Made by a program: the position numbers and the translations under genes
Assembly (NCBI GenBank): GCA_017305665.1
Contig: JAFKKH010000029.1
Location: 62,001 to 126,000 of the forward strand
From: Hyphomicrobiales bacterium
GTDB taxonomy: Bacteria > Pseudomonadota > Alphaproteobacteria > Rhizobiales > Xanthobacteraceae
Length of the DNA stretch: 64,000 nucleotides
Direction of reading: 5' to 3'
The notes under the pieces: model-generated
Told to the model about the DNA's origin: nothing
What the model saw: only the letters and a program-made list of their open reading frames with translations
The model's database searches: none
Part shown: piece by piece, positions 33,516 through 56,070 of the stretch
How positions within the stretch are numbered: the stretch's first letter is position 1
How the letters are laid out: each line of letters starts with the position of its first letter

Positions 33516-33551
33516 TGTCAATATTTGGTATATATGTATCATATGTCGGCA
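33516..33551 (-). promoter_or_regulatory. Cluster operator, copy 1 (upstream of PLP gene)
   Basis: Weakest member of the recurring element: minus-strand GATACATATATAC, then CAAATATTGACA, matching the 3' half (TATTGACA) but with poor TTCT/AGAA half-sites. It lies 30 bases upstream of the PLP gene start, in the 250-base divergent promoter region shared with IclR. Confidence 0.4.
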
Positions 33552-33736
33552 CAACATTGTTGGCTCTCTGCGAAGTTGCGTGACGGCAGGTCGTCGGGCC
33601 GGTTGTCCACTCTGCTTTGCGGAAATTCGTCTTGACGAATAAGCGCCTCCGATCATGGTTCGTTCCGCACCGAAATTTGTAACGTCTAACTGACTCTGCT
33701 CTTTTGTCTTCGGCTATTTTCTGACATGGGCGGTTG

Positions 33737-34546
33737 ATGCAAAAGACATCCAAAAGCCTTTCCAAGAAGTCGGCTCCCGAGTCGAGTGTCGCCCGGGAGC
33801 CGAAGGTTGATTCGACCCTGACCAAAGGGCTGCTTCTGCTCGATTCGCTATCCGCGGCGAGCGGCGGCAAGGGAGTGAGCGATCTCTCGCGCGAGCTCGG
33901 CCTCACGAAATCCAATACCTTTCGTCTTCTGCAAACGCTGACGACGCTGGGATACGTCCAGCGCGGTGAGGGCAAGCTTTATTCCGCGACCCTGAAGACG
34001 TGGCGGATTGGTCAGCGGGTCATCGACAATCTCGATCTGCCCGAGCTTGCGCGTGACGAGATGCGCAGGATCGCCGACGCGACCCACGAGACGATCTACC
34101 TTGCGGTCCCTGAAAATTTGTCGATCGTCTACATCGACATGATCGATAGCCTGAGGCCCATCCGGACCTGGAATCGCATCGGCGGGAGGGCTCCAATTCA
34201 TTGCGTCGGAACCGGTAAGGCCATTATCGCCGCCAACTATCCGTCGTTGCGTGGCGCGCTCAAAGGGGAATTGGCCAAGTACACCAGTCGCACGATCACA
34301 TCCCTTGCCGCGCTCGAGGTCGACATCGAAGCTACGAGAAAGAACGGATATGCGTTCGATTCTGGCGAATTTCGAGAGGGCGTCGTTGGGACCGGTGCCG
34401 CGATATGCCTGCCGAACGGCTTCGCGATCGCGGCGATAGGCGTGTCGCTGCTGGAGACCGATCTGCCAGAGCATGGTCGCGAGAAATTGGGTCGGCTGGT
34501 GAAAGACGCCGGTGAGCGCATTACGGCGCGGCTTGCGCGGAATTAA
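33737..34546 (+). CDS. IclR-family regulator (first)
   Basis: 269 residues: a charged N-terminus, winged helix at about 28-90 (GVSDLSRELGLTKSNTFRLLQTLTTLGYV) and an IclR effector domain (about 100-265, WNRIGGRAPIHCVGTGKAIIAA ... GVVGTGAAICLPNGFAIAAIG). It lies between the divergent PLP gene and hydantoinase operon, both with operator-like elements. Likely controls the catabolic block with the second IclR at 54319. The start is set at the ATG just after a TTG; no strong ribosome site. Confidence 0.92.
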   Translation: MQKTSKSLSKKSAPESSVAREPKVDSTLTKGLLLLDSLSAASGGKGVSDLSRELGLTKSNTFRLLQTLTTLGYVQRGEGKLYSATLKTWRIGQRVIDNLDLPELARDEMRRIADATHETIYLAVPENLSIVYIDMIDSLRPIRTWNRIGGRAPIHCVGTGKAIIAANYPSLRGALKGELAKYTSRTITSLAALEVDIEATRKNGYAFDSGEFREGVVGTGAAICLPNGFAIAAIGVSLLETDLPEHGREKLGRLVKDAGERITARLARN

Positions 34547-34638
34547 CTAGTCCGCAGTGCTGTGCACTATCGGCGATAAGCGCATTTTCCGACCCGCTTC
34601 GGCGTAACGCATCGGGGATCATCCCGTCGCGGCCTATG

Positions 34639-34674
34639 TGCTGATATATAGAACAAATATTCTGTATATTGACA
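34639..34674 (+). promoter_or_regulatory. Cluster operator, copy 2 (hyuA promoter)
   Basis: TGCT-GATATAT-AGAA followed by CAAATA-TTCT and then GTATATTGACA. Half-sites are spaced 11 and 10 bases. It lies about 45 bases upstream of the hyuA start. Confidence 0.75.
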
Positions 34675-34717
34675 CGAGAGGGCCGATCCTCCAACGTGCG
34701 GCCAACCTGTCAGGAGC

Positions 34718-36820
34718 ATGAGCGGCTGGATGAAAGAGATGAAGGTGCGGGTAGGGGTCGACATCGGAGGCACGTTCACTGACGTCGCGTTGGAGCACGC
34801 GAATGGCCTTTCGACTTGCAAGGTGCTGACGAACTACCATCAGCCGGAGCAGGCTATCCTCGACGGGATCATCAAGGCGACCGAACAGGCCGGATTGAAT
34901 CTTGGCGATATTGGTCAGGTTATCCATGGAACGACCTTGGTCACCAACTCTCTGATCGAGAGGCGAGGCGCAAAGCTGGCGTTCATCACGACGGAGGGAT
35001 TTCGTGACGTCGTCGAAATGCGCTCCGAAAACCGCTTCGAACAGTATGACCTCAATCTGAGGCTTCCCACGCCGCTCGTCGCGCGACAGGATCGGTACAC
35101 GCTGAAGGAGCGGATGGCCGCGGACGGATCGGTTCTGCTTCCGCTCGATGTGGAGGAAGTGAAGACGCTTGCCGCCCGGATCGTCGAGCGCGGCTATGAG
35201 GCCGTCGCCGTCGGATTGATGCATGCCTACGCGAACGGCGCGCACGAACGCGACGTCGAGCGCATCTTGAAGGCTGCTGCCCCGCAACTTTCGGTATCGC
35301 TATCGTCCGTCGTTTCGCCCCAGATGCGGGAATTCGAGCGATTCAACACCGTCATCGCCAACGCCTATGTCCAGCCTCAGGTCGCAAGCTACCTCACCAG
35401 GCTCGTACAGCGGCTGCGTGATATCGGTATCGGCGCTCAGGTTTTCATGATGCATTCCGGCGGCGGTCTGATAAGCATCGAGACGGCGGCCGCACAACCC
35501 GTTCGCTTGCTAGAATCCGGCCCCGCGGGAGGCGCGATCTTCGCCGCCCAATACGCGAATTCGCATGGCATCGCGAAGGTTCTCTCGTTCGATATGGGCG
35601 GCACGACCGCGAAGATCTGTCTCGTCGAGGATGGCGCTCCGAAGACGGCCAACAGCTTCGAGGTTGCGCGGACCTATCGCTTCAAGAAGGGCTCGGGGAT
35701 GCAGGTGTCCACGCCGGTCGTCGAAATGGTCGAAATCGGCGCTGGCGGCGGATCGATTGCTTCTGTTGATACGATGGGACGTATCCAGGTCGGTCCACGC
35801 TCCGCCGGTTCGGAACCCGGCCCCGCTTGCTATCAACGAGGTGGCGAGGAGCCGACGGTGACAGATGCGAATCTGCTCCTCGGGCGACTCGATCCGGACA
35901 ATTTCGCTGGCGGCGACATCCGGTTGTCGGTCTCGCTGGCCGAGAGCGCTGTTGACGCCCGCCTGACGCGCGGCGCCGGCGTCGCGCGGGCAGAGGCGGC
36001 TTTCGGCATCACGGAGATCGTCGATGAAAACATGGCCAATGCGGCACGGGCTCATACGATCGAGAACGGGCGGGACGTCGAAGCGTTTACAATGGTCGCT
36101 TTCGGGGGCGGCGCACCTCTCCACGCGTGCCGGCAATGCGAGAAGCTCGGCATCAAGGCGGTTCTCATTCCACCGGGAGCCGGCGTCGGTTCGGCGATCG
36201 GCTTCCTCAAGGCACCGTTCAGCTATGAGGCGACCCGCGGCTTCTTCCAGCGTCTGACGAACTTCAATTCCGATGACGTCAACGCGATGGTCCAGCAACT
36301 CGAACGCGAGGCACGCGCGTTCGTGAGTGCCGCAGCCGGTGGCGCACCGACGTCGATCAAGCTCGTGGCATTTATGCGCTACTCCGGACAGGGCTGGGAA
36401 ATCCCGGTCGTGCTGTCGCACCGTGCCTTTACCCCGTCGGACGCTGCGATGATCGAGAACGCTTTCAACGACGCTTATCGCAGGCTGTTCGGGCGAACGA
36501 TCGAGGGCCTTGGAATAGAAATCACGAACTGGTCTTTGACCGTCGCGACGGATCTGAAACCGGCTGCCAGGGTCAAACGTCTCGCGAGTGAGCGGAAGGC
36601 GCATGTGTCCCGGACACGTCATTTCTTCGATGCAGCCCTCCGACGTACGGTTGAAGCGGTCGAGGTCCGGCGCAGCGACATGGTGCCGGGAGCACGCGTC
36701 GCCGGACCTGCTGTGATCATAGAAGACGAGACGTCGACCATCGTAACCGACGCGTTCGAGGCGATCGGGCAGCAGGACGGCAGCATCCTGCTCATCAGGA
36801 AGGATCGCGGGAATGCCTAG
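34718..36820 (+). CDS. hyuA: Hydantoinase/5-oxoprolinase subunit A
   Basis: 700-residue ATP-dependent subunit. N-terminal MKVRVGVDIGGTFTDVAL and the central FDMGGTTAKICLVE are the acetate-kinase-like nucleotide-binding motifs; the C-terminus has GAGVGSAIGFLKAPFSYEATR. Hydrolyses lactam or hydantoin rings with ATP together with subunit B. Cyclic substrates in the family include 5-oxoproline, N-methylhydantoin, hydantoins and acetone-like ketones. AGGAG lies 1 base before ATG 34718 but 13 before the second ATG at 34730; the true start may be 34730 or 34739. Overlaps hyuB by 8 bases. Confidence 0.92.
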   Translation: MSGWMKEMKVRVGVDIGGTFTDVALEHANGLSTCKVLTNYHQPEQAILDGIIKATEQAGLNLGDIGQVIHGTTLVTNSLIERRGAKLAFITTEGFRDVVEMRSENRFEQYDLNLRLPTPLVARQDRYTLKERMAADGSVLLPLDVEEVKTLAARIVERGYEAVAVGLMHAYANGAHERDVERILKAAAPQLSVSLSSVVSPQMREFERFNTVIANAYVQPQVASYLTRLVQRLRDIGIGAQVFMMHSGGGLISIETAAAQPVRLLESGPAGGAIFAAQYANSHGIAKVLSFDMGGTTAKICLVEDGAPKTANSFEVARTYRFKKGSGMQVSTPVVEMVEIGAGGGSIASVDTMGRIQVGPRSAGSEPGPACYQRGGEEPTVTDANLLLGRLDPDNFAGGDIRLSVSLAESAVDARLTRGAGVARAEAAFGITEIVDENMANAARAHTIENGRDVEAFTMVAFGGGAPLHACRQCEKLGIKAVLIPPGAGVGSAIGFLKAPFSYEATRGFFQRLTNFNSDDVNAMVQQLEREARAFVSAAAGGAPTSIKLVAFMRYSGQGWEIPVVLSHRAFTPSDAAMIENAFNDAYRRLFGRTIEGLGIEITNWSLTVATDLKPAARVKRLASERKAHVSRTRHFFDAALRRTVEAVEVRRSDMVPGARVAGPAVIIEDETSTIVTDAFEAIGQQDGSILLIRKDRGNA

Positions 36821-38456
36821 CTCCGTCATTGATTTCCAGATCATGTGGAATCGCCTGATCGCCGTCGTCGAGGAGCAGGCGACGACGCTTATCCGTACGG
36901 CGTTTTCCACCTCGGTCAGAGAGGCCGGCGATTTGTCTGCCGGGCTTTTCGACCGGCGAGGGCGCATGATCGCGCAGGCCGTGACGGGTACCCCGGGTCA
37001 CGTCAACGCGATGGCGGAAAGCACCGGGCATTTCATCCGGGAGATCGGCCCCGACAACATCTTTGAGAACGACGTCTACATCACCAATGATCCGTGGATG
37101 GGAACGGGACATCTGCACGATATTACGATGGTCTCCCCGTCTTTTCGCGCGGGCGCGCTCATCGGCTTCTTCGCGTGCACGGCGCATGTGGTCGATATCG
37201 GGGGCCGCGGCTTCGGGCCGGATGGCAACGAGGTCTACGAGGAAGGCCTGCAGATCCCGATCATGAAATTTGCCGAACGCGGCGAGGTGTCCCAATCGCT
37301 GGTCCGGCTCGTGCGCGCCAATGTCAGGGAGCCCGATCAGGTCGTCGGCGATCTGTACTCGCTGGCCGCCTGCAACGTGGCCGGTGACAGGCGCCTGCAG
37401 GAGATGCTCGACGAGTTTGACATTGCCGATATCGAAGGGCTGTCGGATTACATCCTCGAAACAAGTGGCAAGGCGACTCGGGAGGCGATCGCGCGCGTTC
37501 CGGCTGGAACGTATCGCAACACCATGGAAGTCGACGGCTACGACGCGCCGGTTCACATGGAGGTCAGGCTCACGATCGACGGCGAGACGCTGACGGCTGA
37601 TTTTGCCGGGACCAGCGGCATGAGCAAATTCGGCGTGAACGTGCCCGAGGTCTATACGCGCGCCTATGCGTGCTATGGGCTCAAATGCGCCATCGCCCCT
37701 GACGTTCCGAACAACCATGGTTCCCTGATCCCGTTCGGGATTGTCGCTCCCGAAGGTTGCATTTTGGCGGCGCGGCGACCGGCGCCGGTTTCGATCCGGC
37801 ACGTGTTGGGGCATCTGGTGCCGGACGTCGTCCTGGGCGCATTGGCGCAGGCCATGCCGGCCGTTGTTCCTGCCGAGGGTGCGAGCGCGCTGTGGAACGT
37901 CCAGATTGCGGCAAGGCCGGTTGAAGGCCGGGAAGGCCGCACCACACAACTGCTGATGTTCAATTCCGGCGGCACCGGCGCGCGTCCCTCGATCGACGGT
38001 CTGAGCGCAACGGCCTTTCCGTCAGGCGTCAAGACGATGAGCGTGGAGGCCACCGAGCAGATCGGTCCGATCGTCGTCTGGCGCAAGGATCTGCGCGAAG
38101 GGTCGGGCGGCGCCGGAGAATTCCGCGGTGGGCTCGGACAGACGATCGAGATCGAGGCCCGGGAGGGCTACGAATTTCACTTCAACGCGATGTTCGACCG
38201 CATTCGCAATCCGGCACGCGGCCGCAGGGGTGGACATGCGGGAGCCGCCGGCGCCGTTCGCCTGTCCGACGGCACGCAGCTCAGGGGCAAGGGAAGGCAG
38301 CAGGTCGGCGCCGGCCAGCGGCTGGTCCTCTCCTTGCCCGGTGGAGGCGGCTTTGGAGATCCACGCAAGCGGGAGCGCAAGAATATTGAGGCGGACTTGA
38401 TTGCTGGATACATCTCGCGCGAGCAAGCGGTGTTGGACTATGGCTTTGAGGACTGA
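36813..38456 (+). CDS. hyuB: Hydantoinase/5-oxoprolinase subunit B
   Basis: 547-residue partner subunit carrying conserved zinc-type and catalytic segments: FSTSVREAGDLSAGLFDRRG at the start, DVYITNDPWMGTGHLHDITMVSP, the FGVNVPEVYTRAYACYGLKC core and a Gly-rich end (PGGGGFGDPRKRE). Starts at ATG 36813, overlapping hyuA, so the subunits are coupled. With subunit A it opens a cyclic amide. Complete and normally sized. The SDR gene starts 14 bases after its stop in the same direction. Confidence 0.92.
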   Translation: MPSSVIDFQIMWNRLIAVVEEQATTLIRTAFSTSVREAGDLSAGLFDRRGRMIAQAVTGTPGHVNAMAESTGHFIREIGPDNIFENDVYITNDPWMGTGHLHDITMVSPSFRAGALIGFFACTAHVVDIGGRGFGPDGNEVYEEGLQIPIMKFAERGEVSQSLVRLVRANVREPDQVVGDLYSLAACNVAGDRRLQEMLDEFDIADIEGLSDYILETSGKATREAIARVPAGTYRNTMEVDGYDAPVHMEVRLTIDGETLTADFAGTSGMSKFGVNVPEVYTRAYACYGLKCAIAPDVPNNHGSLIPFGIVAPEGCILAARRPAPVSIRHVLGHLVPDVVLGALAQAMPAVVPAEGASALWNVQIAARPVEGREGRTTQLLMFNSGGTGARPSIDGLSATAFPSGVKTMSVEATEQIGPIVVWRKDLREGSGGAGEFRGGLGQTIEIEAREGYEFHFNAMFDRIRNPARGRRGGHAGAAGAVRLSDGTQLRGKGRQQVGAGQRLVLSLPGGGGFGDPRKRERKNIEADLIAGYISREQAVLDYGFED

Positions 38457-38469
38457 AGGAGAAATCACG

Positions 38470-39219
38470 ATGAAACAGCCTATTGCGCTCGTTACCGGAG
38501 CGGCTCAGGGAATCGGCTTTGCCTGCGCAGAAGCGCTGCTCGAACAAGGTCATTTCGTCGTCCTCAGCGACATCAAGGCCGACAGCGTCAAAAGCGCCTC
38601 TCAGAAGCTCGGAAGCCAGACCGACTTCGTGGTCTGCGATATGAGTGATCCGAAGGCGATCGCGGCGATGTTCGATCAGATCGAAGCGAAGCATGGTGCG
38701 ATTTCGGTGCTCGTCAACAACGCTGGCATCGCCATGCCGAAGCCGTTCTTCGACACCAGCGAGGACGATTTCCGCAAGGTCATCGACATCAATCTCGTCG
38801 GCGTCTTTCTCGCGACCCAGCGAGCCGCGAAATCCATGGTCGCGAACAAGATCGCGGGCGCGATCGTCAATATGTCTTCCATCAACGCCGTTGTCGCGAT
38901 CCCGACCATCGCATCCTACTGCGCCTCGAAGGGCGGGGTCATGCAGCTCACGAAAGCCGCGTCGCTCGCCCTGGCGCCGTACAATATTCGCGTCAACGCC
39001 GTCGGACCGGGGTCGATCGACACGGAAATGATGGCAGGCGTCAACTCGAATCCCGAGGCGATGAAGACGGTGATGTCGCGCACGCCGCTTCAACGCATGG
39101 GGGCGCCGCGGGAAATCGCGGACGTTGTCGCGTTCCTTGCGGGGCCCAAGGCGAGCTACATCACCGGAGAGACGATCTATATCGACGGTGGCCGCTTGGG
39201 CATGAACTACACCTGCTGA
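38470..39219 (+). CDS. Short-chain dehydrogenase/reductase
   Basis: 249 residues from ATG 38470 with GAAGGAG upstream. Classical SDR: TGAAQGIG at 9-16, NNAG, catalytic Ser136/137, Tyr150 and Lys154 (NMSSINAVVAIPTIASYCASKGG), then PGSIDTEMMAG. NAD(P)-dependent oxidoreductase acting on an alcohol or carbonyl intermediate; the Asp34 of VLSDIK after the second strand suggests NAD preference. Third gene of the hyuA-hyuB operon. Substrate unknown. Confidence 0.9.
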   Translation: MKQPIALVTGAAQGIGFACAEALLEQGHFVVLSDIKADSVKSASQKLGSQTDFVVCDMSDPKAIAAMFDQIEAKHGAISVLVNNAGIAMPKPFFDTSEDDFRKVIDINLVGVFLATQRAAKSMVANKIAGAIVNMSSINAVVAIPTIASYCASKGGVMQLTKAASLALAPYNIRVNAVGPGSIDTEMMAGVNSNPEAMKTVMSRTPLQRMGAPREIADVVAFLAGPKASYITGETIYIDGGRLGMNYTC

Positions 39220-39332
39220 CCGGACGGCTCGTTACCTGAGACCGGTAGGTGCGTTCTGCCGCATCTATGGCGGTCACGGACCATATCGCCGATCTCTGCC
39301 GAAGTCATTGCGGCGCGATCCGCGCCGCTGCA

Positions 39333-40688
39333 TCATTCGCCGGGCCGCGATTTTGCCAGCGATCGCTCGAGCTTTAATGCCGCGGCCAGTACGAGATCCT
39401 CTCTGTTCGGTGGCCCCACAAGCTGCACGCCGATCGGCAGTCGCGAGGCGCCCGGGACGGGCAGGCAAACGATCGGAAGGCCGGCTGACGATATCGGCTG
39501 GGTAAAACGCCCGATCGTGGGACGCACGGGATATGACGCACCCTCGATCTCGGTGCTCTCGTCGCCGAAGCGCGGCGCGACGAAGGGACTGGCCGGCAGC
39601 AGGAGAACGTCGACGTCCTTGAACAGATGTTCCATCTGCGTGCGGAACCACGCCTGAAAGCGCTTGCCTTTAATGTACCACGCGGCCGGCAGAAGAGCTC
39701 CGGCCAGGAAGCGGTATCGCGTTGAAGGGTCCAATTGCTCCGGGCGGTCGCGAAGATCGCCCAATCTCAGAGCAGATGCTTCGCTGCTCGTGATCGCGTA
39801 GGAGGCGGCGCGGGCGACATCCGGGCACGGTATTTCGACCGTCCGTCGCACGTCGAGATGCTCACGGGCCGTGGCCATGGCCTTGCGGACGTCTTCAGTC
39901 ATTCGTTCGGCAAAGTATCCGCCGGCGACGGCGACGACCGGGGCAGCCTGCTTTTCGGCTCGTTCTGCTCCGCGCCCCAAAACGCGCCACGCAAGTGCGA
40001 CATCTTCAACGCAATTGCCGATCCAGCCGACGTGATCCTGGCTCGGAGCCAGTGGTACCATGCCGGTGCGATCGACGCAGCCGAAGGTCGGCTTCATCCC
40101 GACGACCCCGCAGAAAGAGGCCGGCACCCGGATCGACCCGTTGGTATCCGTTCCGAGGGCGAGCGGCACCATGCCGCTGGCGACGGCCGCCGCCGTTCCG
40201 CCAGATGACCCGCCCGCCGTACGCTGCAGATCGAGCGGGTTGCGGGTCGGCCCGTAATGGGCGTTGTCAGTGAGGAAGCCGTAAGCGAACTCCTCCATGT
40301 TCAGCGCGCCCACCAGGACGGCGCCGGCCTGTTCGAGCGCAAGAATGGCCGCTGCATCTTGCTCGGCGGGAGGATTCGAGGCGAGGATCTTCGATCCTGC
40401 CTTGGTGACAACCGCTTCGATGTCGAACAGGTCCTTGGCCGCGAAAGGAACGCCCGCGAGAGCGCCCGGATCCTTGCCGGATGCGATCAGTTTGTCGATC
40501 TCTCTCGCCCGCTTGCGTGCGCGCTCAGCGGTGATCGTCGTGAAAGCGTTGATCTTGCCGTTCTTCGCGGCGATCGCATGCAGGGCTTCCTCGGTGACAC
40601 TTATCGCAGTACGCGCGCGATTGCGTACCTGTTCGGCGATTTCGAATGCGTTCGGGCACATGGTCATCTCGACGGCTTCAATTGTCAT
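39333..40688 (-). CDS. AtzE-like amidase (amidase signature family)
   Basis: 451 residues from the ATG at 40688, overlapping the end of the AtzG-like gene by 11 bases. The amidase-signature triad is Lys85 (AAKDLFD), Ser161 (AGGSSGG) and Ser185 (TDTNGSIRVP). Pairing with a DUF4089 subunit points to the AtzE/AtzG group (1-carboxybiuret hydrolase in cyanuric acid breakdown, or a related amide hydrolase). It may cut a urea- or carboxamide-type intermediate produced by HyuAB. Convergent with the hyuA-hyuB-SDR operon. Confidence 0.88.
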   Translation of the reverse strand: MTIEAVEMTMCPNAFEIAEQVRNRARTAISVTEEALHAIAAKNGKINAFTTITAERARKRAREIDKLIASGKDPGALAGVPFAAKDLFDIEAVVTKAGSKILASNPPAEQDAAAILALEQAGAVLVGALNMEEFAYGFLTDNAHYGPTRNPLDLQRTAGGSSGGTAAAVASGMVPLALGTDTNGSIRVPASFCGVVGMKPTFGCVDRTGMVPLAPSQDHVGWIGNCVEDVALAWRVLGRGAERAEKQAAPVVAVAGGYFAERMTEDVRKAMATAREHLDVRRTVEIPCPDVARAASYAITSSEASALRLGDLRDRPEQLDPSTRYRFLAGALLPAAWYIKGKRFQAWFRTQMEHLFKDVDVLLLPASPFVAPRFGDESTEIEGASYPVRPTIGRFTQPISSAGLPIVCLPVPGASRLPIGVQLVGPPNREDLVLAAALKLERSLAKSRPGE

Positions 40689-40857
40689 AGCTTGCGGCCG
40701 GTAATTCAAAATCGAGCAGCGGCGCGATGAGCGACCGGTTCATCTCGAGTTGAAGGATAACGTCCTCTCGATAGGCGGCGGGAATCTTGAGGTCGACGGC
40801 TGCCGCGGTTCCCTCGAGCCACATGTTGAGATTCTTCGGATCGTCAATCACCGTCAT
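40678..40857 (-). CDS. AtzG-like (DUF4089) small amidase subunit
   Basis: 59-residue gene read from the reverse strand: MTVIDDPKNLNMWLEGTAAA, then VDLKIPAAYREDVILQLEMN and a tail RSLIAPLLDFELPAASYDN. This is the DUF4089 pattern (helix, LxIPxAYRxxV, helix, LLDFxLPxx), the small partner that AtzE-type amidases need. Its stop overlaps the amidase start by 11 bases, indicating translational coupling. It is below common length cut-offs and would be missed by automatic calling. Confidence 0.85.
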   Translation of the reverse strand: MTVIDDPKNLNMWLEGTAAAVDLKIPAAYREDVILQLEMNRSLIAPLLDFELPAASYDN

Positions 40858-41185
40858 ACTCCATCATCGGATTATGGCTCCCGCGCTCGTTGTTTTTGCG
40901 TTGCACAACAATGCGTCCAGCATTCGCTGACGGCCGGCATAGCCAATCCACCAGCCAACCAAATCCCGCGAACACTCTTCGTCGTTTATTGCCTCAGTGG
41001 CAAGCGAGTTGTTCTATATAACAGAAATGAGATTTTATATATTGACATGGCCTTCCGCTCTGCAATGATCTAAGCCATTGAAGGTGAATGGGACGTTTCA
41101 GCGGATGATCGACGTCCTTCATGACCGATCGCCTTCTGCAAATCCGGCGGAAGGAAGCATCTAGGTAACTCGGGAGGGGTGGAAG
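40858..41185. other. Divergent promoter region of the amidase and ABC operons
   Basis: 328 bases without a gene. Contains the third cluster operator (41012-41047) and TATATTGACA oriented to the right. No further ORF or repeat recognised. Confidence 0.5.
41012..41047 (+). promoter_or_regulatory. Cluster operator, copy 3 (ABC transporter promoter)
   Basis: TTCT-ATATAAC-AGAA, then ATGAGATTTT and ATATATTGACA (41023-41047 for the second half). It lies about 140 bases before the solute-binding protein gene, same direction. A perfect first arm. Confidence 0.75.
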
Positions 41186-42805: not shown

Positions 42806-42864
42806 CCCGATACGTTCCGGAGCGGTGCCGATAGGACGGTTCCGCTCCGGGCTGGATAACGGAT

Positions 42865-44669: not shown

Positions 44670-44675
44670 TCGGGC

Positions 44676-46663: not shown

Positions 46664-46815
46664 CGGAGTCCTTCAGGTCCGCGCCACGATGTCTGCTTTC
46701 CCGCATCCCTTTTCGCGGGGATGCAAAGCACAACTCATGCACAAATCATGGCGTGGCGCTTGCCGGCCACGCAACGTTCTTATTTATGTCATGTCAGGCG
46801 CATCCGGCGAGCCGC

Positions 46816-47970: not shown

Positions 47971-48070
47971 GCTTTCCCCAGTTCAAGTTCTCGAGCGGTC
48001 GATGATGGCCGCGCGCGGCCCGCGGTTCTGTCGGATGCGGTTGCGCACTGTTGTCGCATCGCGATATTGG

Positions 48071-48106
48071 TGTCAATATACGAGATTATAATTCCATATA
48101 ATAGAA
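48071..48106 (-). promoter_or_regulatory. Cluster operator, copy 4 (CaiB promoter)
   Basis: Minus-strand reading: TTCT-ATTATAT-GGAA, then TTATAA-TCTC and GTATATTGACA (48071-48095 plus the upstream TTCT at 48103-48106). It lies about 100 bases ahead of the CaiB start, same direction. Confidence 0.75.
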
Positions 48107-48180
48107 CATTCGAGGAGCGGACCGTTCAGGTCCGCGGTCTCCGGTCTCCGGCCAGTGGACGGGGGCATGCCGCGTCCTTG

Positions 48181-50496
48181 TCATTTCTTCGCGGCCACCA
48201 ACGTGAGCGGCTGCGGCGGCTCGAATGCCTGAATCGGGGGAAGGTTTCCGGTGAAGAGTTCGACCTCCACCGTCGTAAGTTGACCGCAACTTCCCTGTGC
48301 CAATTTGGACGTGCCGACATCCCGCGTCAGGACATTGGGATTTCCGTGCACGCAAAGCGACTTGTCTTCGCTTGGATCTTCAGGATCGTACCAGGCCCCG
48401 GTCGGAAGCTGCACCACGCCGGCGCGCACGCTATCGGTTAGCCGGGCTGCAGCGAGGCAAGCGCCGCGCGTGTTGGACAACTTGACGATGTCGCCGTCCT
48501 TGATTCCGCGAGGCGCGGCATCTTGCGGGTTGATACACATGACCTCACGGCCGCGATGTTTCATTTCGGCGCTATACCCTCCGAAATCGAACTGGCTGTG
48601 AAGGCGGGATGCCGGCTGATTGGCGACAAGCTGCAGCGGGCTCTGCGCGCTGACCGCGTCAACCGGAGGAAGCCATGCCGGATGGCCGAGGCAATCGTCA
48701 TAGTTGTAGCTCGCGATGCGCTCGGAGAAAATTTCCACCTTACCGCTCGGCGTCGTCAATGGTTTGCCTTGCGGATCGTTCCGGAAGGCTCGCAAAGAGC
48801 CGCCATCGTGCGGTTTCTGCGGCAAAACCAGTTCGCCGCGCTCCCAGAATGTGTCGAAATCGGGAGCCTCGTGACCATTCGCCGCTAGTGAATCTTGGGT
48901 TTTCTTGTAGAGATGCCGCAACCATTCATCCGAGGTGCGGCCTTCAGTGAAGGCTTCCTTGCGGCCGAGGCGATCGGCGAGACCGGTAAAGATATCGTAG
49001 TCGTCTCGCGCCTCTCCATACGGAACGGCCATCTTCTGCATCGCGATCATCAACGGATCGAAGGAAGTCCCGCCGATATCGTTACGCTCCAGGGTCATGG
49101 TTGCGGGCAAGACGATGTCGGCGTGACGTGCCGTTGCGGTCCAGCCGATCTCGTGCACCACGAATGTCTCGACGCTCGCGAACGCTTTTTGTAGCCGGTT
49201 GAGATCCTGGTGATGGTGAAATGGATTGCCGCCGGCCCAGTACACCAGTCGAATATCGGGATAACGCAGCGTCTGGCCGTTGTACTCGAACGGCTGGTGC
49301 GGATTGAGCAACATGTCGGCGATCCGGGCGACGGGGATGAATTCCTTCACCGGATTCTTGCCTTGCGGCAAAGATGCGATCGGGGCCGCGTTGGTCCGGC
49401 GACCGAAATTGGCCATTGCCCCGAGCGCATAGTTGAATCCGCCGCCGGGCAATCCGAATTGCCCCAGCATGGCGGCAAGCACGGCTCCCATCCACACCGG
49501 CTGCTCGCCATGCTCGGCGCGTTGCAGCGAATGCGAAACAACGATGAGCACCCGCTTGCCAGGCAGACGGCTGGCTTGTCGCACGATTTCGTCGGCGGCG
49601 AGCCCGCAGATTTTCGCCGCCCAGGACGGATCCTTGGGCACCCCGTCGCTTCGGCCCATCAGGTAGTCTTCGAACTGCTCCCATCCGGTGCAGTGGCTCG
49701 CGAGAAAAGCGCGGTCATGCCAGCCGTTTGTCACCAGCGTATGAGCGATACCGAGCATCAGCGCCGTATCGGTGCCGGGATGCGGCGCCAGCCATTCGGC
49801 GTTGATCTCCGGAGGCAGGTCGTCTCGAATAGGGCTGATCAGCACAAAATGACCGCCGCGTGCGTGACAGGCGCGCATGTGGTCGCGTTCACTATGGCGA
49901 CTGACGCCGCCGGGAGCCACGAACGAATTCTTCAGCGCCATGCCGCCGAAGGCGAGGACGAAATCCGTGTACGCGACGATGTCTTCCCACAAGACGTTCT
50001 CGCGCGACACCTCGTCGTAGCCGCCGATGACGTAGGGCAGGATGACGGAAGCCGCGCCTGACGAATAGGTGTTTACCGAACGGACGTAGCCGTCGGTTGC
50101 ACAGTTGAGGAATCGATGGACCTGGCTCTGCGCGTGGTGAAAGCGGCCAGCACTGCTCCAGCCGTACGAACCGCCAAAGATAGCACCCGGACCTTTCGTG
50201 CCGACGACGCGCTTGAGTTCGTCCGCGATCAGATCGAGCGCGTAATCCCACTCGACCTCGACATATTGATCGCGCCCGCGGCGGTCATCCTTCCCGGGAC
50301 CATTGTCCAGCCAACCCCGCCGGACCATCGGGCGTGCGACACGCGCCTTGTGACGAAGGGCGCCGGAAAAATTCTGGATAACGCGATTGGGATGGGGATC
50401 GGTCGGATGCGGAGTGATGACGAGCCGGTCATCGGCCCAATGGCCTGAAAACGCGCCGTAGTGGGACAGATGCGAGTAGCTGGTAGGCATGTTCAT
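48181..50496 (-). CDS. DMSO/biotin-sulfoxide-reductase-type molybdoenzyme
   Basis: 771-residue bis-MGD reductase without the N-terminal Fe-S cluster and without a Tat signal, so probably cytoplasmic, like BisC. The Mo ligand is Ser (VNTYSSGAAS, about Ser145). SYGW has Tyr111 and Trp113, equivalent to the Tyr114/Trp116 of DMSO reductase that favours sulfoxides over TMAO. Later motifs FGGMALKNSF and the C-terminal LSNTRGACLAAARLTDSVRAGVVQLPTGAWYDP close the fold. Reduces an S- or N-oxide intermediate. Variant operator at 50511. Confidence 0.88.
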   Translation of the reverse strand: MNMPTSYSHLSHYGAFSGHWADDRLVITPHPTDPHPNRVIQNFSGALRHKARVARPMVRRGWLDNGPGKDDRRGRDQYVEVEWDYALDLIADELKRVVGTKGPGAIFGGSYGWSSAGRFHHAQSQVHRFLNCATDGYVRSVNTYSSGAASVILPYVIGGYDEVSRENVLWEDIVAYTDFVLAFGGMALKNSFVAPGGVSRHSERDHMRACHARGGHFVLISPIRDDLPPEINAEWLAPHPGTDTALMLGIAHTLVTNGWHDRAFLASHCTGWEQFEDYLMGRSDGVPKDPSWAAKICGLAADEIVRQASRLPGKRVLIVVSHSLQRAEHGEQPVWMGAVLAAMLGQFGLPGGGFNYALGAMANFGRRTNAAPIASLPQGKNPVKEFIPVARIADMLLNPHQPFEYNGQTLRYPDIRLVYWAGGNPFHHHQDLNRLQKAFASVETFVVHEIGWTATARHADIVLPATMTLERNDIGGTSFDPLMIAMQKMAVPYGEARDDYDIFTGLADRLGRKEAFTEGRTSDEWLRHLYKKTQDSLAANGHEAPDFDTFWERGELVLPQKPHDGGSLRAFRNDPQGKPLTTPSGKVEIFSERIASYNYDDCLGHPAWLPPVDAVSAQSPLQLVANQPASRLHSQFDFGGYSAEMKHRGREVMCINPQDAAPRGIKDGDIVKLSNTRGACLAAARLTDSVRAGVVQLPTGAWYDPEDPSEDKSLCVHGNPNVLTRDVGTSKLAQGSCGQLTTVEVELFTGNLPPIQAFEPPQPLTLVAAKK

Positions 50497-50510
50497 AAAC
50501 CCGTCTCGGC

Positions 50511-50552
50511 GTTCTCATATGTGGAACTATTGTTCGATATAGCATACTCGAA
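50511..50552 (-). promoter_or_regulatory. Cluster operator variant, copy 5 (molybdoenzyme promoter)
   Basis: Minus-strand: TTCGA-N10-TCGAA palindrome (50533-50552) merging into CGAA-CAATAG-TTCC. It matches the family element in position and centre but diverges in letters. Only 15 bases upstream of the ATG at 50496. Confidence 0.45.
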
Positions 50553-50616
50553 GGCGCCGTTGCTTGCGATAGCGTTATTCAATCAGCAAGCCTCGCACGC
50601 CGCCAGATTCTCGTGA

Positions 50617-53022
50617 TCAACCTAGCGATGCGGCTGCGGACTCCTCGCGTTGAAGCAGCCCGGTCCCGCTACGTTCGGATCGCGATGCGGCCTGGGCCCA
50701 TCCTGTGCGCCCGGCATTCATCGCCGCCCAAACGGTTGCCTGTGTCGCGGGCATATCGATGTGCCTTACGCCGTGCGGCCGCAGCGCGTCCAAAACGGCT
50801 GCGATCACTGCGGGTGGTGCGCCGATTGCCCCGGATTCGCCTGCGCCTTTGATGCCAAGCGGATTGTTTGTGGAGGGAGATCCCTCGTAGAGGATGCTGA
50901 CGATCGAAGGCATGTCAGAGGCCCGTGGCAGGCCGTAGTCCTGAAGGGTCGCCGTCACAAGCTGTCCATCGGCTTGATAGACCACGCCTTCGTGCAGGGC
51001 CTGACCCACGCCCTGAGCGACGCCGCCGACGATCTGCCCTTCCACGATCATTGGATTGAGAGCGGTTCCGATATCATCGACGCAGGTATATCGCGCCAGT
51101 CGCGTCTCGCCGGTGTCTTGGTTGATCTCGACTTCGCAAACATGAGCGCCGTTAGGCCAAGTTTCGCCTTTCACCGTGTGCGTTGAACTGAAAATAACCT
51201 TCTTTTCCGGACGGCGCCCCACAAGATCGAACAAGCCAATGCGGTGATCGGTTCCATCGACGAGGAAGCAGCCTTTTTCATAGCGCATATCCGCGACGGA
51301 GACTTCCAGCGCCGCCGCAGCCTCGCGGTTGAGCACGTCAAGAGCGTCATGCGCTCCCGCCGATACGGCGCTCCCGCCCACAAACAGCGAGCGTGAGCCA
51401 AAGCTGCCGAAGCCGTTCGCCATCGCCGTGTCGCCCGTCATGATGTCGATATCGGCGATATCGATCTCGAAGATCGCCGCAACGATCTGCGCAAAGGACG
51501 TCGAGATTCCTTGCCCCATCGGGATGACCGCGGTTTCGATAGCAATACGGCCCTTCGAATCGATGATGATCCGGATCGTCTCGGTGAAGGCGTTGCCACC
51601 GGTCCATTCGACGAACATCGATAGCCCGCGACCTCGGAGGAATCCCTGTTTTCGACTCTGCTTACGCCTCGCTTCGAATGTATTCCATCCGGACTCGTCG
51701 AGAACGCGCTCGAGCACCGCCGGGAAATTGCCGGAATCGAAGGTTTCCCCGATCGCGTTCCGGTAAGGCATCTGTCTTGCCTTCACCAAATTCTGGCGGC
51801 GTAGCCTTGCAGGGCTGATGCCGAATTCGAAGGCCGCGTGGTCGAGCAGCCGCTCGATCGCATAGATGGCTTCCGGTCGACCCGCGCCTCTGTACGGCCC
51901 GGTCGCCTGCGTGTTGGTCAATACGCCACGCACCTCGAGATCGATGTGAGGAATGTCGTAGACGTTGGTCGCAACCTTGGGACCGAGGTTGAGTGCGAGA
52001 ATGGGACCGGCCGGGCCAGGATAAGCCCCCAGATTGACGTAGGTCGACGACCGCAGCGCCCTGATGCGGTACTGTTCGTCGAACGCGGCTTCGATCGAGA
52101 CAAGCTGGTCCCGGGCATGTGACGAGCCGAGGAAGTCGTCCATGCGGGAGCCTTGCCACTTCACCGGCCGTCCGGTGCGCTTGGCGAAATGCGTGACGAG
52201 GACATCCTCCGGGTACAGATACCCCTTCATGCCAAAGCCGCCGCCGATATCGGGGACCTTGATCCGCAGCTCCTCCGGTTCGCAGCCGAGGGCCGACGCG
52301 AGTTGCTGATGCACGGCTGTGGGATTTTGCGTTCCCACCAGCAGGATTGTTCGGCCGGGCTCCGTGTCGGGATAGGCGAGGGCAGATCGCGGTTCGAGCG
52401 GAGAGGGGAAAAGGCGCTGATTCCGTACGGTCAGCGCGCATCGGTGACTGGCTTTTGCGAATTCGGCAGCGACCGCCTGCTTGTCGCCGTACCGGGTCGA
52501 CGTGACGATATTGCTGTCCGCCCGATCATCGATTTTAGGAGAGTTAGGCTCGATCGCCGCGATGATGTCGACGACCGCGTCGAGCTCGCTGGTCTCGACG
52601 ACGATTTGCTCGAGCGCATCTTCGGCGGCTCGCGCCGTCTCCGCGACTACCACGGCGACGATTTCTCCGACGTAGCGGACGCGGTCGGTGGCTATGGCAA
52701 ATCTCGAGGGTGACGGCATGCTGCCGGCGCCGTCCGGCCCGGGATACGACCGCATGATCGGGATCGCCTGCAGGCCGGCCGCGACCAGATCGCTCCCGCA
52801 CGCTGCGGTGATGACACCAGGCCAGGATGCCGCCCCGGATACATTCACCGAGATGATCTCGGCATGCGCGGCGCTCGCGCGCAGGACAGCCAGATGAAGC
52901 GCGTCGTTCTCTCTGTGATCGTCCGTGTAGTGTCCGCGGCCCGTCACCAGGCGGTGATCTTCCGTTCGCAGTGTACGCTGGCCAGCGCCAAATTTCATCA
53001 AGCTGTCCTGTTCGTGCCGCAT
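50617..53022 (-). CDS. CoxL-type molybdenum hydroxylase large subunit (orphan)
   Basis: 801-residue catalytic subunit of the xanthine oxidase/aerobic CO dehydrogenase family. N-terminal VTGRGHYTDDHRENDALHLAVLRA, GTQNPTAVHQQLASALG, TGPYRGAGRPEAIYAIERLL and the C-terminal GIKGAGESGAIGAPPAV, with the essential Glu. The active-site AYxCSFR loop of true CO dehydrogenase is absent, so a heterocycle/aldehyde hydroxylase is more likely. The FAD (CoxM) and 2Fe-2S (CoxS) subunits normally encoded alongside are not in this window. Function otherwise inferred. Confidence 0.9.
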   Translation of the reverse strand: MRHEQDSLMKFGAGQRTLRTEDHRLVTGRGHYTDDHRENDALHLAVLRASAAHAEIISVNVSGAASWPGVITAACGSDLVAAGLQAIPIMRSYPGPDGAGSMPSPSRFAIATDRVRYVGEIVAVVVAETARAAEDALEQIVVETSELDAVVDIIAAIEPNSPKIDDRADSNIVTSTRYGDKQAVAAEFAKASHRCALTVRNQRLFPSPLEPRSALAYPDTEPGRTILLVGTQNPTAVHQQLASALGCEPEELRIKVPDIGGGFGMKGYLYPEDVLVTHFAKRTGRPVKWQGSRMDDFLGSSHARDQLVSIEAAFDEQYRIRALRSSTYVNLGAYPGPAGPILALNLGPKVATNVYDIPHIDLEVRGVLTNTQATGPYRGAGRPEAIYAIERLLDHAAFEFGISPARLRRQNLVKARQMPYRNAIGETFDSGNFPAVLERVLDESGWNTFEARRKQSRKQGFLRGRGLSMFVEWTGGNAFTETIRIIIDSKGRIAIETAVIPMGQGISTSFAQIVAAIFEIDIADIDIMTGDTAMANGFGSFGSRSLFVGGSAVSAGAHDALDVLNREAAAALEVSVADMRYEKGCFLVDGTDHRIGLFDLVGRRPEKKVIFSSTHTVKGETWPNGAHVCEVEINQDTGETRLARYTCVDDIGTALNPMIVEGQIVGGVAQGVGQALHEGVVYQADGQLVTATLQDYGLPRASDMPSIVSILYEGSPSTNNPLGIKGAGESGAIGAPPAVIAAVLDALRPHGVRHIDMPATQATVWAAMNAGRTGWAQAASRSERSGTGLLQREESAAASLG

Positions 53023-53080
53023 CGAAAATCGATCCCGGCGTCGTATCGACGCTCGGGATCGACTGTTTCAATTCGTGGCG

Positions 53081-53428: not shown

Positions 53429-53461
53429 TCTATTCTCCGGTGGTTCTGTCGAAGTATGCGG

Positions 53462-53809
53462 CTAGACGGCAGCCGTGACCTGCATTGCGACGAGGTGGCG
53501 CGGCGTGAGCAGCTTGGCTTCGATCGGAGTGCGTGTTGGCAAATGACCGGGGACGATCCACGAGTCCCATACTTCGTTGACGGCTTCGAAGTCGCGCATA
53601 TCGGCAAAAACGATCGTCGCAGTGAGAAGCTTCGACTTATCAGTGCCGCAAAGCGAAAGAGTATCTTCGATCTGCGATAGGATCATTTTCGCCTGCTCGG
53701 CGGCGGTCGGGCCGGGCTCCTTGGCGATATTGCCCGCCAGATAGGCGACCCCGTTGAAAATGACCGCCCGGCTGTATCGCGTTCCCGAACCGACGTATGT
53801 GATGTCCAT
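53462..53809 (-). CDS. RidA-like protein
   Basis: 115 residues of the same family (AVIFNGVAYLAGNIAKEPG, ILSQIEDTLSLCGTDKSKLLTATIVFADMRDFEAVN, HLPTRTPIEAKLLTPRHLVAMQV). The substrate-binding Arg is kept (TRTPIEAKL), the terminal Glu is again Gln. May hydrolyse an imine/enamine or a carbamate-like intermediate. First of two RidA genes; together with CoxL probably one operon. Operator element lies 90 bases upstream. Confidence 0.85.
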   Translation of the reverse strand: MDITYVGSGTRYSRAVIFNGVAYLAGNIAKEPGPTAAEQAKMILSQIEDTLSLCGTDKSKLLTATIVFADMRDFEAVNEVWDSWIVPGHLPTRTPIEAKLLTPRHLVAMQVTAAV

Positions 53810-54318
53810 TTGGATCTCCGTTGAAACAAACGTGCAATACGCTCCGCACGCGGCGCATCTAACGCCGAGATCGCGCGGACCAAAAGAGAAATCTTGGATA
53901 TGTTCTGCATATTAGAACATATATCTTGTATATTGACATTACCTCCTCCTGTGGAATGATCGTGGTTTGCTAGGTCGCACGGTCCGCGTGGCGTCAGCCT
54001 GTGTGCCGCGGGCTTGAGGCGCCGGGAGATCCGCGATGATCGTTCGATGAGGTCTGCGAGTCTCTTCGCGTTGGCTTGGGCTTGCATAGGCCTGGGTTTG
54101 CATTGCTTAGACCGGCGATCGTCTTGACGATCGCGCCCGCGCGTTCGCGGGACGCTTCCGCTCTTGCCGCAAGCGAAGCCGCAAGGAATTGACGATCGGC
54201 GGGGCCGTCATCTGCCCTTGCATCTATTGTGAGCCGAGTATCGTGACCCGAAGACGAATACGCCCGTCGGCGCCGCCGACGGGTGCCGCTCAACGCTTGA
54301 GAGGGGAATCGCGCAGGC
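53810..54318. other. Intergenic region with one operator copy
   Basis: 509 bases without a recognisable gene. Contains the operator copy at 53903-53938, whose TATATTGACA points right, into DNA without a gene, and a GC-rich hairpin at 54263-54283 (cccgtcggc/gccgacggg, 9 perfect pairs, no T-run). Short open frames here have shadow-like Arg/Ser composition. Confidence 0.5.
53903..53938 (+). promoter_or_regulatory. Cluster operator, copy 6
   Basis: Best conserved copy: TTCT-GCATATT-AGAA (extended ATGTTCT/AGAACAT), then CATATATCTT and GTATATTGACA. It lies 94 bases upstream of the RidA start but in the opposite orientation to it, with no rightward gene following. Confidence 0.75.
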
Positions 54319-55104
54319 TTACTGCTGCAATGATCCGATCGCCGTCGATGCAGCCTTCGCCGAAGCGACGACGATCGGCGCATATTCCTTGATCCGCTGC
54401 CGCGTCAGGCGCGACAAGGGACCGGAAATGCCGATGGCGGCCAGAATCCTTTCATCGGCATCGAAGATCGGAGCGGCGACGCCTCCGACATCCGCACGAT
54501 ATTCGCCGACGTTCACCGAATAGCCGGAATTGCGGATGGAGGCGATTTCCGTGTCCAACGCTCTCACCGACGTGATCGTTTTGTCTGTGTGCTTGTCGAG
54601 CATCTTGGAGATCGGCTCTCGCAGAGCCTCGTACGAATAGGCCAAAAGCACCTTGCCTGTTGCTGTGCAATGGAGCGGTGAGCTGCCCCCGCGTTCCGAG
54701 TAGGCTCTGACGGATTGGGCGCTGTCGATTTTTTCGATGTAGAGCAGGCGTAGTCCGTCGAGAACCGAGAGATGGACGCTTTCGCCGGTCCGTTGCGCAA
54801 GCTTGTTCATTTCCCTGATGCAGAGTTGAACGAGATTGGCATGACTCATCACCGACGAACCAAGCTTCCAGAGCTTCATCGTGGCGCGATAGCTGCGGTC
54901 CTCGTCCTGGACGACATAGTTCATGGCGCGCAGTGTCTTGACCAGGCGATGGACGTTCGATTTGTTCAGTTCGAGAAGCGCCGACAGCTCGGTGATACCG
55001 AGCGAACGCGGTGATACCGCCAGTGTTTCGAGAATTTGAAGCCCTTTGTGGAGAGTGCTATCGAGCCGCGGAGCCATCGCCTGCTTTTCGACCGTCGCTG
55101 CCAT
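54319..55104 (-). CDS. IclR-family regulator (second)
   Basis: 261 residues from ATG 55104 (MAATVEKQ), with AGGAAG 4 bases upstream; the longer start at 55122 would overlap the operator. Winged helix about 20-85 (GITELSALLELNKSNVHRLVKTLRAM) and effector domain with YSERGGSSPLHCTATGKVLLAY and YSVNVGEYRADVGGVAAPIFD. The preceding operator copy (55117-55152) suggests autoregulation. Compared with the IclR at 33737, similar order but different sequence, so two sensors may act on one regulon. Confidence 0.93.
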   Translation of the reverse strand: MAATVEKQAMAPRLDSTLHKGLQILETLAVSPRSLGITELSALLELNKSNVHRLVKTLRAMNYVVQDEDRSYRATMKLWKLGSSVMSHANLVQLCIREMNKLAQRTGESVHLSVLDGLRLLYIEKIDSAQSVRAYSERGGSSPLHCTATGKVLLAYSYEALREPISKMLDKHTDKTITSVRALDTEIASIRNSGYSVNVGEYRADVGGVAAPIFDADERILAAIGISGPLSRLTRQRIKEYAPIVVASAKAASTAIGSLQQ

Positions 55105-55116
55105 CGACTTCCTATT

Positions 55117-55152
55117 TCCCAATATACTGAAGATTTGTTCTATATACGAGAA
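55117..55152 (-). promoter_or_regulatory. Cluster operator, copy 7 (IclR promoter)
   Basis: Minus-strand: TTCT-CGTATAT-AGAA followed by CAAATC-TTCA and GTATATTGGGA. First arm perfect. It sits 13 bases upstream of the preferred IclR start, as expected for autorepression. Confidence 0.7.
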
Positions 55153-55189
55153 TACCTCGAAGTTGAAAGCAACTCAACCACTCGCGCGA

Positions 55190-55948
55190 CTACTTCTGCT
55201 GTCTCGCCGCCAGGGCTTTCTGCCGGTACGCTTCGATCCGCGCTTTCAATCCGGGACGACTTGCAGAGTTGACCAGCGCTGCGAGGTCGCCATCGTCATC
55301 TCGTGACATGGTCTTGGCGTGCAAGGCGGCGACCGTGGCCGGCTCCAGTCGGGAAGCGGCCGCCGCGACCTGTCCCAGCAGCTCTTGCAGACCGGTCTGA
55401 TCGCAGAGATCAGTAACCAGGCCGACTTCAGCCGCCATTGAGACCGACACCTCCGCCCCCTCGAGAAGAAGGCGCCGCGCGACATCGTTTCCGATCCGTG
55501 CCGCCAGCCGGCGCGTGCCAAGGACCAGGCCGAACCCGGAACCCGGAAACGCGAAGCTGCTGCCAGGGAGGCCGATCCGCCGGTCGCAGGCCGCGAACAG
55601 ATCGGCTCCGGCACCGTAAACCCGACCCGATCCGATGGCTGCGGTCATGATCGGGCTGGAATAGATTTTCTGGAGGAGATGTTCGATGCGGACAAAACGC
55701 AGAAGAAGATCGCCGTCCGAACAGCGATCCAGATCGCTAAGGTCAAAGCCGGTGCACATATGCTTGCCGGCGCCTTCAAAAACGATCAGGCGGACGCCTG
55801 CTGCGTGGGCATTGTCGATCGCGCGATCGAGATCGTCGACCATCGATGGACTGAGCGCGTTGCCGATTTGCGGCCTGTTGAGCGTGATGCGGGCGCATGC
55901 ATTTTCCACCAGCAGGCTTATTTCCGGACATTCAAGACGCGCGCTCAT
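55190..55948 (-). CDS. Enoyl-CoA hydratase/isomerase family protein
   Basis: 252 residues from ATG 55948, with GGAG about 5 bases upstream (the longer frame to 56161 is not supported). Crotonase fold: ITLNRPQIGNALSPSMVDDLDRAID, FEGAGKHMCTGFDLSDL (oxyanion loop), GSGRVYGAGADLFAACDRRIGLPGSSFAFPGSGFGLVLGTRRLAARIG. Glu residues of classic hydratases at the second active-site position are not evident, so isomerase or hydrolase action is possible. Divergent from the thiol oxygenase gene through a shared operator region. Confidence 0.85.
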   Translation of the reverse strand: MSARLECPEISLLVENACARITLNRPQIGNALSPSMVDDLDRAIDNAHAAGVRLIVFEGAGKHMCTGFDLSDLDRCSDGDLLLRFVRIEHLLQKIYSSPIMTAAIGSGRVYGAGADLFAACDRRIGLPGSSFAFPGSGFGLVLGTRRLAARIGNDVARRLLLEGAEVSVSMAAEVGLVTDLCDQTGLQELLGQVAAAASRLEPATVAALHAKTMSRDDDGDLAALVNSASRPGLKARIEAYRQKALAARQQK

Positions 55949-56034
55949 CGCTACTCCAATCTTCCGATGAAATCCGTGCCGTATCCTGGAACGCCTTTGC
56001 CGATGCTTGACGCGATCCGAGGGGTAGGTATACG

Positions 56035-56070
56035 TTACAGATAATAGAAATTTCGTTCTATATGTCGGAA
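56035..56070 (-). promoter_or_regulatory. Cluster operator, copy 8 (ECH/thiol oxygenase divergent promoter)
   Basis: Minus-strand TTCC-GACATAT-AGAA, then CGAAAT-TTCT and an imperfect ATTATCTGTAA. Both AGAA-N6-TTCT half-sites are perfect. It lies in the 236-base region shared by the enoyl-CoA hydratase and the thiol oxygenase genes. Confidence 0.65.

Follow-up and report, generated by a model that had tools for sequence, protein, structure and literature searches.

Organization of the block

The stretch analysed here, referred to throughout as the window, comprises 64,000 nucleotides from a Hyphomicrobiales bacterium (contig JAFKKH010000029.1 of assembly GCA_017305665.1, positions 62,001 to 126,000) and contains a 25-kb block of catabolic genes, the genes of two regulators, IclR1 and IclR2, and eight copies of a 40-bp palindromic element that likely act as operators of a local regulon. 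Both regulators are members of the IclR family, scoring above the Pfam gathering thresholds for HTH_IclR and IclR_C, and are 34% identical to each other. The genes of the block are as follows.

31664..32296, minus strand: VOC protein (Glyoxalase_3, Pfam)
32314..33486, minus: cystathionine beta-lyase family C-S lyase (CBL; TIGR01324, 415 bits, cut-off 366)
33734..34546, plus: IclR1 regulator (HTH_IclR and IclR_C; clade support 100/100)
34718..36820, plus: hyuA (hydantoinase/oxoprolinase A)
36813..38456, plus: hyuB
38401..39219, plus: SDR oxidoreductase, start unsure
39333..40709, minus: AtzE-family amidohydrolase (NF006631, 538 bits, cut-off 461)
41186..46663, plus: ATP-binding cassette (ABC) importer, with SBP_bac_5 binding protein (SBP), two permeases and two ATPases (SBP, permease 1 and both ATPases have Pfam matches; permease 2 is assigned from its 90% match to the gene of Afipia sp. 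Root123D2, genome G228)
46816..47970, minus: CaiB family III CoA-transferase
48181..50496, minus: BisC/TorA-type S/N-oxide reductase (TIGR00509, 908 bits, below the cut-off of 1018)
50617..53022, minus: CoxL-like molybdenum hydroxylase large subunit
53462..53809, minus: RidA-family protein
53990..54290, plus, approximate extent: decayed SBP_bac_3 gene (SBP3; short co-linear fragments, 72.6% over 106 bp against the G228 gene region)
54319..55104, minus: IclR2 regulator (HTH_IclR and IclR_C; clade support 99/97)
55190..55948, minus: enoyl-CoA hydratase/isomerase (ECH)
56185..56763, plus: cysteine-dioxygenase-like cupin (CDO; PF05995, 41 bits in the longer open reading frame from 56110)

The Pfam run for permease 2 covered an overlapping frame only and gave no match; small and medium subunits to accompany CoxL were absent from the genes called in the block, no separate search for them having been made. 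At its right edge the block meets a tRNA-Gly(tcc) gene, followed directly by a phage-type integrase gene (window 57160-58316), and GC content falls to about 0.51, an island-like setting. The eight elements, with the genes that they can be assigned to and the score that each obtains when left out of the matrix, are these.

Operator 1, 33514..33553, minus: CBL-VOC operon and divergent IclR1; 26.4 bits; whole-genome match; CBL is likewise preceded by a site in G228 and Paracoccus seriniphilus
Operator 2, 34637..34676, plus: hyuA-hyuB-SDR; 49.2 bits; in G228 and P. seriniphilus a counterpart precedes FAD oxidase-hyuA
Operator 3, 41010..41049, plus: oligopeptide-type ABC importer and divergent AtzE amidase; 40.4 bits (SBP site); counterparts in G228, ahead of SBP, and in genome G627, where it separates SBP from AtzE
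Operator 4, 48069..48108, minus: CaiB CoA-transferase; 37.8 bits; whole-genome match
Operator 5, 50510..50549, minus: BisC-type molybdoenzyme, adjoining the start codon; 20.8 bits; G228 counterpart 22.6, not above the best of 100 nulls
Operator 6, 53901..53940, plus: RidA (leftward, probably with CoxL) and decayed SBP3 (rightward); 37.6 bits; G228 counterpart between an intact SBP_bac_3 gene and RidA
Operator 7, 55115..55154, minus: promoter of IclR2 itself, adjoining the start codon; 23.2 bits; sites at the IclR2 gene of G627, G545 and G453; G228 counterpart weak, 11.8 bits
Operator 8, 56033..56072, no strand assigned: ECH and divergent CDO-like gene; 25.3 bits; whole-genome match

An earlier note on this DNA, made from the sequence alone, had reported eight sites sharing a core upstream of genes of the block. 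All eight are present within two bases of the coordinates it gave, score far above chance and are placed upstream of genes: under our gene model every one falls in non-coding DNA, which makes up 11.2% of the block, provided that IclR2 starts at the ATG at 55104 and ECH at the ATG at 55948 (the longest open reading frames of these two genes, with TTG starts, would run into operators 7 and 8). With a 40-column matrix built from their ungapped alignment, the sites score 37.1-55.1 bits, against a best of 14.0 in 30 simulated 64-kb sequences, and the score elsewhere in the window never exceeds 12.0. Two sites had been thought weaker. That at 50511 has the lowest leave-one-out score, in keeping with that description; that at 33516 proves no weaker than those at 55117 or 56035. 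A 25-position IUPAC pattern, allowed up to three mismatches, matched the 5.03-Mb genome at exactly these eight places, and a reversed control matched nowhere. As the pattern was derived from counts of the eight sites, their recovery is by construction and the informative part is the lack of further matches; it supersedes a stricter pattern that, at three mismatches, recovered two of the eight. The scan yields only the block sites and not the many unrelated loci that the note had named as grounds for abandoning its idea, and the claim that one operator links the block is supported.

The eight operators can be assigned, on their positions, to every operon of the block, CoxL being reached only through its conserved order behind RidA, an order also kept in G627. 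The outer box TTGACA of the site at 53901 faces away from RidA, and the matching Afipia site faces an intact SBP_bac_3 gene. A rightward original target in the SBP_bac_3 remnant (about 53990-54290) would explain this orientation. This remnant of an amino-acid binding-protein gene, between RidA and IclR2, looks decayed, and the operator-promoter at 53901 survives beside it.

Anatomy of the element

The element is an imperfect palindrome of 40 bp, in which four boxes alternate at 11-10-11 spacing, with a half-site consensus of YGTKYCAATATAYRGAACAW. Its boxes follow the form YGTKYC-AATATA-YRGAAC plus the mirror image, and it can equally be read as two IclR-type palindromes whose centres lie 21 bp apart. 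The description of a tripartite operator therefore does not hold, a fourth box standing 11 bases beyond the third in dyad symmetry; the half-site spacings of 11 and 10 bases in the same description were correct. The trailing GTATATTGACA, which had been set apart as a separate element, is the outer box of the palindrome and perhaps also a -35 hexamer. Identity between half-sites averages 52% in the window, against a mean of 28.7% and a maximum of 42.6% for shuffled halves, and is unevenly spread, from 18% at RidA and 35% at SBP to 53-71% at the other six sites. Five of the eight (CBL, hyuA, SBP, CaiB and RidA) have an exact TTGACA as their right outer box, which may double as a -35 box.

Sixteen such outer-box sites from the window and relatives (15 TTGACA and one CTGACA, some orthologous to each other) were compared with shuffled sequence. 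The best hexamers 16-18 bp downstream match TATAAT at an average of 2.94 of 6 positions, against 2.19 in the shuffles (s.d. 0.22), a level reached in one of 2000 shuffles. These values are suggestive of -10 hexamers downstream of the TTGACA-type sites.

Distribution with two regulator lineages

Among 391 genomes of the family, a sample that includes the window genome, IclR1 (E value of at most 1e-60) and IclR2 (at most 1e-70) occur only in the window genome and in G228. Sixteen of the 19 block genes lie within 60 kb in the latter, at 75-90% protein identity and in rearranged order; AtzE and CoxL were not found within that 60-kb locus, and the closest CDO-like match there was 46% identical. Seven G228 sites outscore all of 100 null sequences; six of the seven distinct pattern matches in this genome fall inside the block. 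MobB and a PF03601 protein are encoded beside the Afipia copy. Neither regulator was found in eight other genomes of the same genus as the window, and the pattern had no match in six same-genus genomes lacking both, two less complete genomes having been left out of that scan.

The element is also found beside each regulator in genomes or at loci where the other was not detected. IclR2 at 1e-70 is present in four of 397 genomes of the order, namely the window genome, G627, G545 and G453. In the last three the orthologs are 53-57% identical to IclR2, the sole match to IclR1 is that ortholog itself, with no separate IclR1, and a site lies between IclR2 and VOC in each (38.5, 33.5 and 34.2 bits, respectively). 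Two further sites in G627 (39.5 and 25.7 bits) lie at SBP/AtzE and at SDR, and G453 has a second site at 27096. All distinct pattern matches in these genomes are at block-type places (three of three in G627, one of one in G545 and in G453).

Conversely, a protein of IclR1 type (52% identity) was found in G915, in a sample of 385 genomes of the class, with a site just upstream, and another (52%) on a plasmid of P. seriniphilus; the sites that accompany these two regulators score 33.7, 36.0 and 34.5 bits. When an IclR2 profile was run over the whole G915 genome the best match was the IclR1-type protein itself, the next being far weaker. Both pattern matches in G915 stand at such genes, one at IclR1 and the other, on a different contig, between FAD oxidase and a rhodanese gene. 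The P. seriniphilus plasmid has two sites, one of which is placed likewise, and there metC, VOC, IclR1, FAD oxidase, hyuA, hyuB and SDR form a single cluster. The evidence for the P. seriniphilus regulator covers the plasmid only. The motif, then, accompanies two regulator clades and not a single orthologous group; like the sites themselves, their confinement and their symmetry, this co-occurrence with each lineage is read directly from the sequence.

Motifs trained on one lineage recognize the main sites of the other, at 26.0-35.1 bits against null maxima of 9.1-15.7 (50 null sequences each). A motif from five sites of the IclR2-only genomes gave scores of 28.7 and 26.0 for P. seriniphilus (null maximum 14.6) and 33.9 for the G915 site (11.8). 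One from three IclR1 sites gave 28.3-32.7 for the main sites of G627, G545 and G453, with 19.7 for the third site of G627 (null maxima 13.4-13.9). In a tree of 20 rows, four on long branches and midpoint-rooted for drawing, the IclR1 clade has support of 100/100 and the IclR2 clade 99/97, while their sister grouping, at 91/86, falls below the program's mark for firm support.

Beyond these clades, a plasmid of the betaproteobacterium Polaromonas (L060) has sites at 1006, 9870 and 13229 that score 26-34 bits. Its IclR protein, 44% identical to IclR2 and outside both clades, is encoded beside BisC (the match to which is split over three pieces) and an ABC importer. Over 26 sites of the window and its relatives half-site identity is 51% (site range 0.18-0.82), against a shuffled mean of 0.28 and maximum of 34.2%; this set includes three G228 sites not above their null maximum (22.6, 20.2 and 11.8 vs 22.6), and omits G453 site 27096 (19.1 vs null 13.5) and the Polaromonas sites (34.2, 30.0 and 26.1 vs 16.3).

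A search of named genome contigs with IclR2 returned only Afipia and seven distant IclR proteins of 24-35% identity. In the three of these seven scanned for the motif (L007, L009 and L012), the best score, 26.3 in AT-rich Neobacillus DNA, lies below the null maximum of 30.1 and is ascribed to chance, the null comparison having left out L009 and L012. Several further candidates were likewise not counted as evidence: Caballeronia (24.1 vs null 24.7), a marginal Cupriavidus site (14.1 vs 12.8), other IclR genes on contig 26 of the window genome (marginal, 24.9 vs 23.9), and G783 (20.7 vs 15.8) and a Paracoccus denitrificans plasmid (19.9 vs 9.7), both of which exceed their nulls and have regulators outside the two clades. 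In G783 (L067:10370) and Caballeronia (L061:9853), distant IclR genes stand beside CaiB and ECH homologs, with somewhat similar four-box sequences whose boxes are changed (GGAC/GTCC, TCCTA/TAGGA), perhaps an illustration of how specificity drifts.

Regulatory model and alternatives

We consider it likely that the eight elements are the operators of a local catabolic regulon, each presenting tandem palindromes to an IclR tetramer, and that IclR1 and IclR2 read the same code. Two dimers would fill the adjacent palindromes, their centres 21 bp or about two helical turns apart, giving a tetramer that occupies a single face of the helix. On comparison of the sites, two sister regulators probably read one operator code, the window carrying both; the simplest reading is that both would have inherited it, the pair now being present in the window and in Afipia. 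This code may predate both clades, since regulators outside them also adjoin such sites. Elsewhere the IclR1 module would consist of CBL-VOC and FAD oxidase-hyuAB-SDR, and the IclR2 module of the importer, AtzE, RidA and CoxL; CaiB, BisC, ECH and CDO would be grouped with IclR2 here by position only.

Binding, the tetramer, the sign of regulation and the effector are what we infer beyond the sites themselves. If TTGACA is the -35 box, a tetramer at TTGACA-type promoters would lie at about -67 to -28, where it would either activate or occlude; this position suits an activator contacting RNA polymerase as well as a repressor that hides the -35 box. At IclR2 and BisC the operator adjoins the start codon, which suggests repression there. 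The poor -10 hexamers give a slight lean toward activation at the TTGACA promoters, and we would, on a nearly even balance, slightly prefer activation there combined with autorepression at IclR2. A more tentative idea, possible and somewhat short of that balance, is a two-input node, in which the paralogous regulators, with different effectors, would either compete for the same 40-bp sites or occupy them as mixed tetramers. If true, modules found apart elsewhere would be switched on jointly or by AND/OR logic, and the outer box would serve additionally as -35 hexamer.

A number of observations weigh against this regulon with its shared code. The case is sequence-based as a whole, with binding and expression predicted, and the -10 evidence is modest and drawn from partly orthologous sites. 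In G228, three sites at expected places (BisC, an ABC operon and IclR2) do not exceed the null maximum, and the seventh pattern match (C1:319469-319506, three mismatches) lies outside the block. G545 and G453 have only IclR2 and VOC in common with the block, no CBL, VOC or hyuAB was seen on the two G915 stretches searched (21.7 and 23.3 kb), and the absence of IclR2 in P. seriniphilus extends to the plasmid locus only. The modules are each assigned from one locus per lineage (P. seriniphilus and G627), and VOC and SDR homologs also adjoin IclR2 in G627. Cross-training passes two places without an operator role as well (P. seriniphilus 4183, 15.3 vs 14.6; G453 16224, 14.4 vs 13.4), and the IclR1-trained motif misses the second G453 site at 27096. 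The recognition helices of IclR1 and IclR2 differ at several residues. Because such sites also accompany regulators of neither clade (that of Polaromonas and perhaps others), the code does not in itself prove that these two clades are the ones involved.

The strongest competitor accepts a shared ancestral code and supposes that the regulators have since diverged, so that each mainly serves its own module with little cross-talk. The separate gene company that each lineage keeps elsewhere and the differing recognition helices both favour it, and it is countered by the cross-trained matrices, each of which finds the main sites of the other lineage; we regard it as a real possibility, if a rather doubtful one. 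It is unlikely that IclR2 alone binds all the sites, IclR1 being a passenger or reading something else: six of the eight window sites do belong to the IclR2 portion of the block, and IclR2 orthologs accompany the motif without a separate IclR1 in G627, G545 and G453, yet it is regulators of IclR1 type that accompany it on the plasmid of P. seriniphilus and in G915, a genome that yielded no better IclR2.

Two further explanations see no operators in the repeats. The repeats could be shared promoter sequences, an AT-rich spacer followed by TTGACA, as the five window sites with that hexamer and the weak -10-like hexamers 16-18 bp downstream might suggest; however, three of the eight lack TTGACA, the genome scan found no other copy, and the dyad symmetry and four boxes in helical register are against it, so that we hold this very improbable. 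Slighter still, to the point of being negligible, is the chance that a repeat family or mobile element was copied around the island: there are many copies in an island-like block adjoining tRNA-Gly and an integrase gene, but similarity stops at the operator and the flanking DNA varies, all copies are placed upstream of genes, and the corresponding genes of other genomes have similar sites too.

Possible substrate and significance

As to what the proposed regulon may control, our guess from gene content is that the block imports and breaks down an organosulfur, amino-acid-like compound, because it contains a CBL-type C-S beta-lyase, RidA, a BisC/TorA-type oxide reductase, a thiol-dioxygenase-like cupin, HyuAB and an amidohydrolase. 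The RidA family handles enamine products of C-S beta-lyases. Next to the P. seriniphilus copy are genes for rhodanese and hypotaurine aminotransferase, which may be read in the same direction, toward organosulfur amino acids or sulfoxides, as may the MobB and PF03601 proteins of the Afipia neighbourhood. Biotin and cyclic thioethers are other conceivable substrates. The locus offers an unusually tidy regulon defined from sequence, with an operator assignable to every operon of the block. It also links two regulators, which provide handles for the inducer, to a catabolic gene set that is still uncharacterised (C-S lyase, HyuAB, BisC-type reductase, cupin, RidA and importer), and it presents a natural test case of sister regulators that seemingly share one operator code, their gene modules joined in one island.

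Comparison with known IclR systems

Among named regulators, the NCBIfam models for KdgR and BhcR score best with IclR1 and IclR2, at 138.7-167.6 bits, far below the curated cut-offs of 275 and 350; the two proteins are not assigned to either, and they fall below the cut-off of every regulator model listed by NCBIfam. Among the titles and abstract openings listed by our literature searches, which did not extend to the supplementary tables of PMC8222616, none describes this regulon.

The arrangement of boxes has precedent in Suvorova and Gelfand (2021, PMC8222616), who describe two IclR motif types, with tandem sites 18-22 nt apart in 94 orthologous groups, read as agreeing with tetramer binding, and three-box sites in 32 groups (PcaU, PobR and HmgR, for example) that combine one group 1 pair with one group 2 pair. 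The half-operator GTKYCAATATAYRGAAC resembles the group 1 motif GKTYCRYW3-4RYGRAMC, from which, by eye, the 26-site consensus departs at three positions (K for T, A for Y and R for G). In the ungapped 40-column register of all eight window sites the centres are 21 nt apart, within the 18-22 nt of the tandem class, and two IclR dimers on such palindromes would match the tetramer reading of that study; the fit to IclR-family binding proposed in the earlier note is supported in this respect. Unlike the tandem sites described there, the two palindromes here form one larger dyad, whose outer box is often TTGACA, and two paralogous regulators appear to share the operator. As in the three-box sites, the boxes alternate and give both group 1 and group 2 pairings, whereas the four boxes here make up a group 1, a central group 2 and a second group 1 pairing, the fourth box being conserved on average. 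The impression that such a signature had not been described does not stand for the arrangement itself, given the tandem palindromes about two turns apart and the three-box sites of that study. Since tandem IclR palindromes 18-22 nt apart have already been described there in general, the regulon is, as far as the literature covered shows, a new one of a known kind, its unusual part being the probable use of one operator by two regulators.

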